Positions 42,706-46,370 of a stretch of DNA of 48,432 nucleotides are shown one piece after another. This DNA is from Candidatus Loosdrechtia aerotolerans (GTDB lineage: Bacteria > Planctomycetota > Brocadiia > Brocadiales > Brocadiaceae), in NCBI GenBank assembly GCA_021646405.1, contig SOER01000023.1, positions 1-48,432 on the forward strand, read 5' to 3'. How positions within the stretch are numbered: position 1 is the stretch's first letter; every line of letters starts with the position of its first letter. The notes under the pieces are model-generated. The model was not told the origin of the DNA. It did no database searches and saw only the letters and a program-made list of their open reading frames with translations. The translations under genes and the position numbers were made by a program.

Positions 42706-43226
42706 ATACAATAAAGAGTAAAATAATAGAACAGAAGTTCTTTGTAGTATCCGGAAGCATGATGCCCGGAGCTTAATAGGAAAATCCGTTTTAAATGGAT
42801 TAACCCAACCGAGTAGGAGACGAGATTTATCCCATATGCATCAAGCTAAGGAATTTTGCTGTACTTTTTTGATGTTTGGTCGTGGGTACGCGCAGGCTAA
42901 AGACCTGCGGCTACTTGTCGTTGCCGCAAAATGTAGCCGCATCCCTTTAGGGTGCGTTTCACGATAGCATGCGAAGTAGCGATATACTTTTTCTTGATGT
43001 AGAGAGAACGTAAAGGGTGCGCATAGCTGATAGCATAGTGAGGAAGGTACCTTAGCTTGATGCATATGGGGTTTATCCCCGTCTCCTTTCACATCGCTCA
43101 GACTTGTATACAAAAAGGTAGCGATTAAAATACAAGTTTAATAAAAGCCCTGGGCCATTTCTTCACTACAAAACACATCTGTAAGTTTTTGTTTCAACTT
43201 GACCATTTTAAAGAGAGGAGGTTGTT
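42706..43226. repeat. Spacer dominated by a terminal-inverted-repeat element
   Basis: Apart from the 271-bp element at 42816-43086, I see no gene. The last 60 bases (43165-43226) should hold the promoter of the YHS gene; its ribosome-binding site GAGAGGAGG ends at 43221. Confidence 0.6.
42816..43086. mobile_element. 271-bp MITE-like element with ~36-bp inverted ends and REP cargo
   Basis: The left end (42816-42851) and right end (43050-43086) are imperfect inverted repeats that share GGAGACG and then the exact 20-mer CCATATGCATCAAGCTAAGG. The interior carries two REP-like hairpins: CGCAGGCTAAAGACCTGCG (42891-42909) and GCATCCCTTTAGGGTGC (42939-42955). No open frame resembles a transposase, so it would be non-autonomous. 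The same terminal motif bounds another structure at 44893-45167. Confidence 0.7.
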
Positions 43227-43589: not shown

Positions 43590-44165
43590 AGGTAAAGTGA
43601 ACCACGGATGAACACTGATAGAGAGCAGAAAGCTCCGGAAGAGCGGCGGCATGTTAATAGAATGGTTCATGGCTCATAGTTTTTAGTTATCAGCTATGAG
43701 CTATCAACTATATCTTCTCTACTGCTCCTCTGGAGCTCAAGAGTGGTACTCATTGTTTTTCTATTAATATATCGCTCCCAACGGAGCTTTCCACTGCAAG
43801 TATGTTTTTGAGAACCCCTTCATCTGAAAAACCTCTTGAATGTCAGTTACAAGGATACTACCATACTTTTTATAGACCAAATACCACCTTTTTGGTTGCG
43901 GCCAAAGGCCGCACCAGGTTTATCCGTGGTTAATTAATACTGTAACACAACCTGGTAAATCCGGAACGTAAGTACCATAATTATTCTTTCCTTTTTCAAT
44001 AACTACTGTATAACGCATATAACCTCGTTTCTTACTTTAGTCCTGCCTGTTTTCAATTATTTTGTAAATCCCTATCGTCTAACACACCATATTTTGCTAT
44101 CATAATGTTGTGGTGACGATAGCCTAACAATATGAACAATAGATTTAGAACAGCATAAAAAACAT
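43590..44165. repeat. Spacer with nested inverted repeats
   Basis: No gene is seen in 576 bases. An outer inverted pair joins 43600-43613 (AACCACGGATGAAC) and 43918-43931 (GTTTATCCGTGGTT). Inside it an imperfect ~33-base pair joins 43629-43662 and 43759-43790 (both carry AAAGCTCC and TTAATAGAA when read 5' to 3'). Near the right arm is the hairpin TGCGGCC/GGCCGCA with a three-base loop (43897-43913). The last 230 bases look like unique AT-rich sequence and probably include the promoter of the next gene. Confidence 0.7.
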
Positions 44166-44792
44166 ATGGGTAAGAAAAAAAAGAAAAAGAAGGTTACCCC
44201 GTTTAAACAAAAACTGAACAAATTGTATAGGGTGGTGGAATACGAAATTACCAGAAAAGGACTACCTGATCCTCAGATCGTAAGCCTGCCTGCAAAAGTC
44301 CAGCAGGAAATAGAAAATGTTCACTTTATGGTGCATGAAAATCCCTGGAAGGCCATTAGAAAACTCAAAAAATTAATTGAGACCTATCCGGATATTCCCC
44401 GGCTTTACAATTACCTTATCGCAGCTTATTCAGTCATTGGGAAACTAGAAAAAGCAGAAGCATTAGTGTTAGAGAGTTACAAAAAACATCCGGATTATCT
44501 CTTTGCAAAGTTAAATTATGCCGAAACCTGCATGAGTAAAGGAGAGTATGAGAAAATTCCTGAAATTTTCAACCACAAGTTTGATCTAAAACTTTTATAT
44601 CCTGAAAGAAATGTATTTCATATCAGTGAAGTAGTCAATTTTGCAGGGACCATAGGTTATTACTATATAAAAACAGGCAACCGTAAGGTTGCTGAACTTT
44701 ATTATAAAATACTAAATCAGCTTGAACCAGAAAGCCCAATGACACAAAGACTGAAAGAGGGGCTTATCTCATCAGAAAGCCCTGTAGATTAG
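44166..44792 (+). CDS. Small TPR-like protein with Lys-rich N-terminus
   Basis: The 208-residue protein opens with a poly-Lys run (GKKKKKKK), then consists of helices that look like three to four tetratricopeptide units (NPWKAIRKLKKLIETYPDIP, KLEKAEALVLESYKKHPDYL, AELYYKILNQLEPESP). There is no signal peptide. The exact family is not recognised; small TPR proteins of this kind usually mediate protein contacts. The basic start could touch nucleic acid or membrane. No Shine-Dalgarno is obvious. A large inverted-repeat element begins on the last base of its stop codon. Confidence 0.7.
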   Translation: MGKKKKKKKVTPFKQKLNKLYRVVEYEITRKGLPDPQIVSLPAKVQQEIENVHFMVHENPWKAIRKLKKLIETYPDIPRLYNYLIAAYSVIGKLEKAEALVLESYKKHPDYLFAKLNYAETCMSKGEYEKIPEIFNHKFDLKLLYPERNVFHISEVVNFAGTIGYYYIKTGNRKVAELYYKILNQLEPESPMTQRLKEGLISSESPVD

Positions 44793-45228
44793 TAATTACT
44801 CAGGTTCAAGGTTTAAGGATCAGGTAAGGAGCAAGACTGACCGCCCTGTGCTCTCTATAAACCTCCAAACAGATATTTTTGACGGCAATGTGCCCCATAT
44901 GCATCAAGCTAAGCTTCAGTAATTTGCTCGCTTGTTGTTGGCCTGTTCCCAAACCATGCGCAGAGCCTGCCTCTTCCTCTTGTTCCCAAACTCTGTTTGG
45001 GAACACAATGGGTATCGAAACTCTGTTTCGAGGATAAAACACGAAACAGAGTTTCGTTTGAAATGGTGTTCTCAAACAGATGCTTTGGCATACTCAGCAC
45101 ATGGTTTGGGAACAAGCCTGTGGCAGGCGCCAGCAGGCTAATAAGACTTAGCTTGCTGCATATGAGGCAATGCCCTACCCTACTTGGTTTTTAACCCTGA
45201 ACTCTGAACCTTGAACCTGAGCAGTTAC
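44792..45228. mobile_element. Triple-nested inverted-repeat element
   Basis: Outer arms 44792-44824 and 45196-45228 are imperfect 33-base inverted repeats sharing CTCAGGTTCAAGGTT. Middle arms 44893-44913 and 45147-45167 carry the same CCCATATGCATCAAGCTAAG motif (19 of 21 match) as the element at 42816. Inner arms 44945-44958 and 45101-45114 share GTTCCCAAACCATG. The centre holds a hairpin TGTTCCCAAA/TTTGGGAACA (44981-45005) and the 15-base inverted pair CGAAACTCTGTTTCG (45016-45030) / 45042-45056. No gene lies inside. Confidence 0.75.
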
Positions 45229-45322
45229 AAATCTTCTCTGTTTCGGCGAGAGGACTCGCCGAAACATCGAAAACGGTATCTTTTAGAAAAGTACTTTTTA
45301 GGCACCCCCCCGGCAGTACATT

Positions 45323-46270
45323 TTATGGAACGTATTTTGAAAAGATATAATCGTTATCTTTCATGGACGTATGACACATATAGCAGCCGGCAACGGGGTC
45401 ATCAATCTTTGATTGCAGCGACTCGCTGTCAAATCCATCAAAAATCCAACCTCCTGCTTCTGCTGCCGTTGAATCCTTTTTCATTGCAGCATACCAGATG
45501 ATATCCCCCTGAGAGATTACCCCATCCTCTTTCACCGGCTCATAGAATCCGACAATGACCTGGCTTCCATCCGGATACGTTCCGCTTGTTTTATTAGCCT
45601 GAAATCCGATATCATTAACATAAATCTGTTGAAACCCATACAGCGGACTCTCTTTATCCAGAATTACCTTGAAATTAGAATGCTGCCATGAACGGAAATC
45701 TACAGGAAAGGCAAAATCATTTGGTTCTGATTCCAATGATGCTTCATCCGGTGGATTAACTTCACCTGCAAACTCGGTAAAAACATACTCCCTGTTCTTT
45801 TTCGCCATATGACAATTGTAGCAACCACCAATAGGGTCACTTACGGTCGATGTGAATGTCTTACCATCAAAGCCATCGAAAATCCATCCACCAGTCCTTT
45901 CTGCTGTTGAGTCTTTTTTCATCACTGCATACCAGATAATGTCTCCCTGGGCAATATCATCCCCTTCCAGTATTGGTTCATAGAAACCAAGCAGTATGAT
46001 ACTCCCATCCGGATAGCCGCCGCCATTTTTATATGCCTCCAACCCCGTATCATTTACGAACACTTGTTGAAATCCATACAGAGGGCTTGTCTTATCCAGA
46101 ATAATTTTAGACGTTGCATGTGTCCAATTTTTATAATCTTTCGGGAATTCCAGTTGAGCAGCCTCTTTTACTGCAGGTTTAGTTTCCTCTGTAACGGTGT
46201 TTTTTGTTGTACATCCAATAAAACTACAGGTTAGAACAACAGCGAGAACACACAAGAATCTTTGCATCAT
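45323..46270 (-). CDS. Tandem-domain cytochrome P460-family di-heme lipoprotein
   Basis: The 315-residue protein has a lipobox (SFIGC, Cys near 20) and two P460-type domains of about 135 residues. Domain 1 reads FPKDYKNWTHATSKIILDKT ... YPDGSIILLGFYEPI ... IIWYAVMKKDS with heme motif CYNCH; domain 2 reads FPVDFRSWQHSNFKVILDKE ... YPDGSQVIVGFYEPV ... IIWYAAMKKDS with CYMCH. Either of two adjacent ATGs (46270, 46267) fits GGGAG upstream; the open frame runs to 46369 without a family counterpart. The two domains are close copies, from internal duplication, so the protein should carry two hemes. It is distinct in detail from the single-domain paralogues at 24488 and 27361. Confidence 0.87.
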   Translation of the reverse strand: MMQRFLCVLAVVLTCSFIGCTTKNTVTEETKPAVKEAAQLEFPKDYKNWTHATSKIILDKTSPLYGFQQVFVNDTGLEAYKNGGGYPDGSIILLGFYEPILEGDDIAQGDIIWYAVMKKDSTAERTGGWIFDGFDGKTFTSTVSDPIGGCYNCHMAKKNREYVFTEFAGEVNPPDEASLESEPNDFAFPVDFRSWQHSNFKVILDKESPLYGFQQIYVNDIGFQANKTSGTYPDGSQVIVGFYEPVKEDGVISQGDIIWYAAMKKDSTAAEAGGWIFDGFDSESLQSKIDDPVAGCYMCHTSMKDNDYIFSKYVP

Positions 46271-46370
46271 TGCTTCTCCCTTCTTTCTCACAAAATAGTT
46301 TCTTATAAATGCACACAATATTTCAAACGAGAATACAACCACCTTCCATCTACTCCGGGTATCCAGCACT

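Follow-up and report, generated by a model that had tools for sequence, protein, structure and literature searches.

Several described systems resemble parts of the locus studied here. IS66 elements have ends that begin with GTAA (GTAAGCG) and produce 8-bp target duplications (PMC11946415). The IS231 subgroup of the IS4 family is recognised by the end consensus CAT-------AA--TAA--- together with a 10-12-bp duplication, and its members are known for modular cargo held between conserved ends (PMC2266710). REPIN/RAYT systems comprise inverted hairpin doublets in extragenic space that flank RAYT genes and share sequence with them (PMC3116915), and insertion sequences that land in REP palindromes are also known, for example ISRm22 of the IS4 family (PMC1525189). 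Here we analysed a stretch of 48,432 nucleotides from Candidatus Loosdrechtia aerotolerans (contig SOER01000023.1; hereafter the window) and propose that a palindromic block within it is very probably made of three nested non-autonomous mobile elements of unrelated kinds, called O, M and N from the outside inwards, and arose by successive insertion. Like the insertion sequences that target REPs (PMC1525189), this nest involves mobile elements inserting into palindromic repeats, but here target and insert are both miniature elements and nests run up to three or four deep. Within an incomplete search of the literature on nested MITEs or anammox MITEs the arrangement was not described, and both the O/M/N stacking and the use of a REPIN as cargo appear to be undescribed in the literature searched. 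The initial annotation had considered the block not to be a named element type, which seems to apply to the stacking but not to the layers, each of which is of a known kind (an IS66-type MITE, an IS231-type MITE or MIC, and a REPIN).

Anatomy and folding of the block

The block is situated between convergent genes at 44166-44792 (+) and 45323-46369 (-) and overlaps, with its first base, the stop codon of the former. A repeat search of the window found four concentric pairs of inverted repeats in it, one more than the initial annotation had counted; the concentric arrangement and the strong fold that had been described are both borne out, as the single strand of 44792-45228 is predicted to fold with -101.2 kcal/mol compared with -52.3 +/- 4.9 for shuffled sequences (z = -9.96), and none of 100 shuffles did as well. 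The outer element corresponds exactly to these 437 bases, running from GTAATTAC to CAGTTAC. An Rfam search of the block region matched no family; conceivably, the block might act as a bidirectional terminator for the two genes. The features are as follows.

44786-44824 and 45196-45234, inverted repeat 1 (outermost), arms 39 nt, 82%
44891-44931 and 45129-45169, inverted repeat 2, arms 41 nt, 76%
44940-44971 and 45087-45118, inverted repeat 3, arms 32 nt, 84%
44992-45030 and 45042-45080, inverted repeat 4 (innermost), arms 39 nt, 82%
44792-45228, unstranded, whole nested element, bounded by layer O (putative IS66-type miniature element), ends GTAATTACTCAGGTTCAAGG and CCTTGAACCTGAGCAGTTAC
44792-44880, plus strand, left part of O, aligns to the M-free O copies L048, L049, L087 and L083
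45165-45228, plus strand, right part of O, joined directly to the left part in L048, L049 and L087
44884-44895, plus strand, left M target duplication, mutated (GGCAATGTGCCC; the empty site of L048 reads GACAGGCAATGCCC)
44896-45164, unstranded, layer M, putative IS231/IS4-type miniature element of 269 bp, ends CATATGCATCAAGCTAAG and CTTAGCTTGCTGCATATG
45165-45175, plus strand, right copy of the M target, AGGCAATGCCC, same sequence as the L048 empty site
44940-45118, unstranded, layer N, putative REP/REPIN-like palindromic core with GTTCCCAAAC and GAAACTCTGTTTCG hairpins, arms from the repeat search
44992-45080, unstranded, innermost hairpin of N, from the repeat search and folding
42831-43070, unstranded, related M with other cargo (the 42816 element), exact CCCATATGCATCAAGCTAAG at both ends

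The three layers and their known counterparts

The source genome (G000) is a 3.26 Mb draft, in which copies were counted from searches and retrieved stretches. Its O ends, GTAAYTAYTCAGGTTC, define a family in which seven paired-end members have perfect 8-bp target duplications (L022, L025, L028, L033, L041, L058 and L083); the window copy has lost this duplication, none being left around 44792-45228. M-free copies of O occur at four sites (L048, L049, L083 and L087), and the two O halves of the window, when joined, align end to end with L048, L049 and L087. One full-length IS66 transposase was found in the genome (480 aa; NCBIfam IS66, 319 bits against a cut-off of 180), and the element that contains it (L089:918-2536) is bounded by GTAACTATTCAGGT and GTAACTACTCAGGT, the first 14 end bases of which are common to O, with no target duplication seen at this element. 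Given its GTAA ends and 8-bp duplications, which follow the IS66-family rule, and the matching ends of the sole full-length IS66 element, O is best read as a non-autonomous IS66-type miniature element, a link that rests on 14 bp of common end. Compared with the IS66 family and the MITEs derived from it, O differs in that most copies are shorter than 500 bp and carry no gene, and in that its ends run GTAACTA instead of GTAAGCG.

The motif CCCATATGCATCAAGCTAAG occurs in the window at 42831 (+), 43051 (-), 44894 (+) and 45147 (-, two mismatches), and thus at both the block and the 42816 element, around different cargos, just as the initial annotation had reported. The target of the 42816 element is GGGTTTATCCC (43069-43079), of which the left copy has decayed. 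Throughout the genome CCCATATGCATCAAGCTAAG is found 65 times at up to two mismatches, compared with no occurrence of a control read backwards, and M end motifs number 90 at up to three mismatches. The terminal 18 bases of M (CATATGCATCAAGCTAAG) fit the IS231-subgroup consensus at every conserved position. In addition, direct duplications of 10-11 bp, a length within the range of that subgroup, stand immediately outside CATATG in 19 of 41 end pairs (shuffled mean 0.98, maximum 5); 10 matches remained after a shift of one base, a consequence of the base runs in many flanks, and none after shifts of two to four bases. IS231A prefers the target GGGN5CCC. The nine 11-bp M duplications are bordered by runs of G and C, with GGGTAATGCCC fitting GGGN5CCC exactly and only some others coming near, and in two species of another genus (G016 and G017) the duplications are mostly 11 bp long (e.g. 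GGGTAATGCCC, AGGCTAAAGCC and GGGTTGCTTCC). Many M copies (L017, L026, L032, L038, L065 and L085) share the target CCCTCCCCCTTCATCCCCCTCCGGAGGGGGA, a repeated sequence that is in part palindromic.

M ends enclose at least three unrelated types of cargo in the source genome, including that of the 42816 element. Another cargo type lies behind the M-like end CATATGCATCAAGTTAGGCCTTCGGCGACTTTTGTC (L012, L031, L052, L069 and L086); it is probably present in high copy number and broke the assembly, since several contigs end some 110-200 bp inside it. The proposed modular end is real and surrounds unrelated cargo, but it is not of REP type, as CCCATATGCATCAAGCTAAG matches the ends of IS4 elements of the IS231 subgroup. 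Judged by these sequence features, M is an IS231-subgroup (IS4-family) miniature element that resembles mobile insertion cassettes. It shares the end consensus, the 10-12-bp duplications and the modular cargo with the IS231 subgroup and MIC231 of Bacillus cereus (PMC2266710), but is found in anammox-clade Planctomycetota and not in Bacillus, is shorter than 700 bp, contains no transposase and carries palindromic cargo, whereas IS231 cassettes carry genes.

A putative enzyme of the right type for M is encoded in the source genome by L104, a complete 1592-bp IS4-family element with a YREK motif and ends CATACGTGTTAAGYTAAG (CATACGTGTTAAGCTAAG and CATACGTGTTAAGTTAAG), which match the M ends at 14 of 18 positions and differ at 4. 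The target that it duplicated, the 10-bp GGATGAAGGG, also holds M copies: L026 and L065 on this strand, and L017, L032 and L085 on the opposite one. By the search routes used, none of 33 genomes of the family yielded an autonomous element with exactly the ends of M, an L104-like transposase was absent from the genomes of genus g6 at the threshold used, and distant blastn searches of M against a plasmid collection gave no match. Other candidate parents of M were rejected: the IS4 transposase L107 adjoins an M end, but its 26 relatives elsewhere have no M-like end pair; the transposase in the 1967-bp M at L085 belongs to a broken element of the IS1182 family that entered the N core; and the transposase loci of g6 yielded a single, chance-like end. 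The close relatives of the source genome's transposases are mostly from Brocadiaceae and other anammox-clade Planctomycetota.

The N core, GTTCCCAAACTCTGTTTGGGAACA...GAAACTCTGTTTCG...TGTTCCCAAACAGAGTTTGGGAAC, occurs at 26 places in the source genome, 18 of which have at least one M end nearby and 11 of which lie between paired O ends; the other 8 have no M end nearby, and such free-standing copies were confirmed by reading the sequence. N is an inverted REP doublet that is predicted to form a hairpin and is dispersed in extragenic space, and N-type palindromes stand on both sides of the RAYT genes L206-L209 in four genomes (G000, G006, G009 and G016). The two of these RAYTs that were tested, L208 and L209 (one from G016, one from G006), reach 106 bits with NCBIfam REP_Tyr_transpos against a cut-off of 80. 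Among the remoter RAYT relatives (L211-L221), most lie near another palindrome motif, TTCCCAAGCT. Because there are free-standing copies and the same palindromes flank RAYT genes, N is, as far as its sequence tells, REP/REPIN-like. The search for a REP-type Y1 transposase that the initial annotation had suggested thus led to RAYT genes, which go with the innermost core N only. Although N resembles REPIN/RAYT systems (PMC3116915) in its inverted extragenic hairpin doublets and in the sequence it has in common with RAYT flanks, it differs from them in that 18 of the 26 copies are near an M end, so that most of its spread looks like hitch-hiking, and in that the one N-flanked RAYT gene of the source genome is frameshifted.

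Among the 33 genomes, O is confined to the source genome apart from two marginal short matches, M is abundant only there and in genus g6, with rare matches in three others, and N is present in 21 genomes of 8 genera. G018 has 129 matches to M and none to N, and G019 has 33 to N and none to M; the three layers differ in distribution and are independent in this respect. In G022, the other surveyed genome of the source's genus, none of the three layers was seen at the thresholds applied, even though M and N abound in g6; this suggests that entry into the source genome was recent or lateral.

Insertion order and alternative explanations

The right flank of M, AGGCAATGCCC, equals the site that is intact in L048, an O copy with the exact empty M site, and the left copy is altered (GGCAATGTGCCC); hence M went into O and not the reverse. 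The order of insertion is thus readable for the two outer layers. Direct proof of nesting outside the window is provided by L180 (G017), where a 290-bp M lies inside a 512-bp M and both have perfect 11-bp duplications, GGGATTACGGG for the inner and GGGAGCAAGGC for the outer. The stacked form has also moved as such: an O end, a one-sided M, N and a second O end occur in this arrangement at no fewer than nine loci, and the O+M+N composite has perfect 8-bp duplications at five (L022, L028, L033, L041 and L058), so that it was itself transposed via its outer ends. Deeper nests occur as well. Four layers are stacked at L073, where a small insert (842-1146) bounded by CAGGCTGGGTCAAAT is found in N, within a one-sided M, within O, and at L085:1041-3007 the N core holds the IS1182-family element mentioned above, which is bounded by the same CAGGCTGGGTCAAAT ends at the same position in N, while the enclosing M keeps a perfect 10-bp duplication (CCCTTCATCC).

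We believe that these observations are best accommodated by the following history. An IS66-type O would have landed between the two convergent genes, and M would then have entered O at AGGCAATGCCC by cut-and-paste transposition, duplicating about 11 bp of its target and carrying as cargo the REPIN-like palindrome N, a type thought to be mobilised by RAYT proteins. N may have been acquired by M through RAYT-mediated insertion, and IS66, IS4/IS231-type and RAYT enzymes would act in trans on O, M and N, respectively. The concentric shape could then result from the inverted ends of each element together with the preference of M for targets bordered by G and C runs. What is documented at the level of sequence is the layers and their ends, the duplications around sister copies, the O copy with an empty site, the existence of each layer on its own, the distributions, the RAYT linkage and the movement of the composite. 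The missing outer 8-bp duplication of the window copy, the mutated left M duplication, the failure to find an autonomous element with exactly the ends of M and the limitation of the O-IS66 link to 14 bp count against this history. The successive insertion first proposed for the block is largely supported by the empty O copies with the exact target, the 10-11-bp duplications of M and the independent copies of the layers. Layers that always occur together, or that have no other copies, had been named as evidence to the contrary; neither is the case, although a fixed O+M+N composite has been amplified too.

A single composite palindromic element that evolved as one unit, for example a family of host structured RNAs or terminators, and was moved or copied whole would fit the recurrence of the composite with fixed junctions and 8-bp duplications, as well as the strong fold between convergent genes. 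We nevertheless consider this very unlikely, given that O, M and N each exist alone and with different distributions, that the M-in-M arrangement records separate insertion events, that Rfam offers no match, and that empty sites and duplications contradict it. Slightly less probable still is an expansion of REPs or BIMEs by RAYT alone, in which every layer would be REP-like and copied by one Y1 enzyme. The N-flanked RAYT genes of the source and related genomes speak for it, but O and M duplicate their targets (8 bp and 10-11 bp, respectively), as DDE transposases typically do and Y1 enzymes do not; moreover, no O-type end was found at the seven Y1 loci of the source genome, and the M-like matches at the scanned loci are at chance level, with 5 mismatches. 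Growth of the palindrome by replication slippage or template switching, with no transposition, is in our view scarcely credible as an account of the whole block. Slippage is a known hazard of long palindromes, self-extension is suggested by the look of some N copies (L080), L038 resembles a collapsed form, and slippage may account for part of N, but it leaves unexplained the direct target duplications, the exact empty site and the occurrence of the same ends around unrelated cargo.

Wider reading and neighbouring features

REPINs are usually regarded as bound to a single-copy RAYT gene and its host lineage. The N copies with an M end nearby indicate that REPINs can also be cargo of DDE-type miniature elements. 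A more far-reaching form of the nest, which we consider unlikely, is a chimera in which an IS66 DDE enzyme, an IS4/IS231 DDE enzyme and an HUH Y1 RAYT would each act on a different layer, a vertically kept REPIN would gain horizontal mobility within DDE miniature elements, and stacking would itself be favoured. From the block one can read which element was inserted into which, for miniature elements linked to three families of transposases. Nesting of this kind is also a simple explanation for the very long nested palindromes of bacterial genomes, and the case shows how risky it is to label a block like this as one structured RNA or as a novel element class.

The single open reading frame at 45323-46369 (minus strand), which has CYNCH and CYMCH (CXXCH-type) motifs, contains a tandem repeat at 45429-46102, the two copies of which are spaced 438 bp apart and are 72-77% alike. 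A further imperfect palindromic block, with AACCACGGATGAAC / GTTTATCCGTGGTT and GCGGCATGTTAATAGAA / TTCTATTAATATATCGC, lies at 43600-43931 of the window and is probably the third block that the initial annotation had counted.
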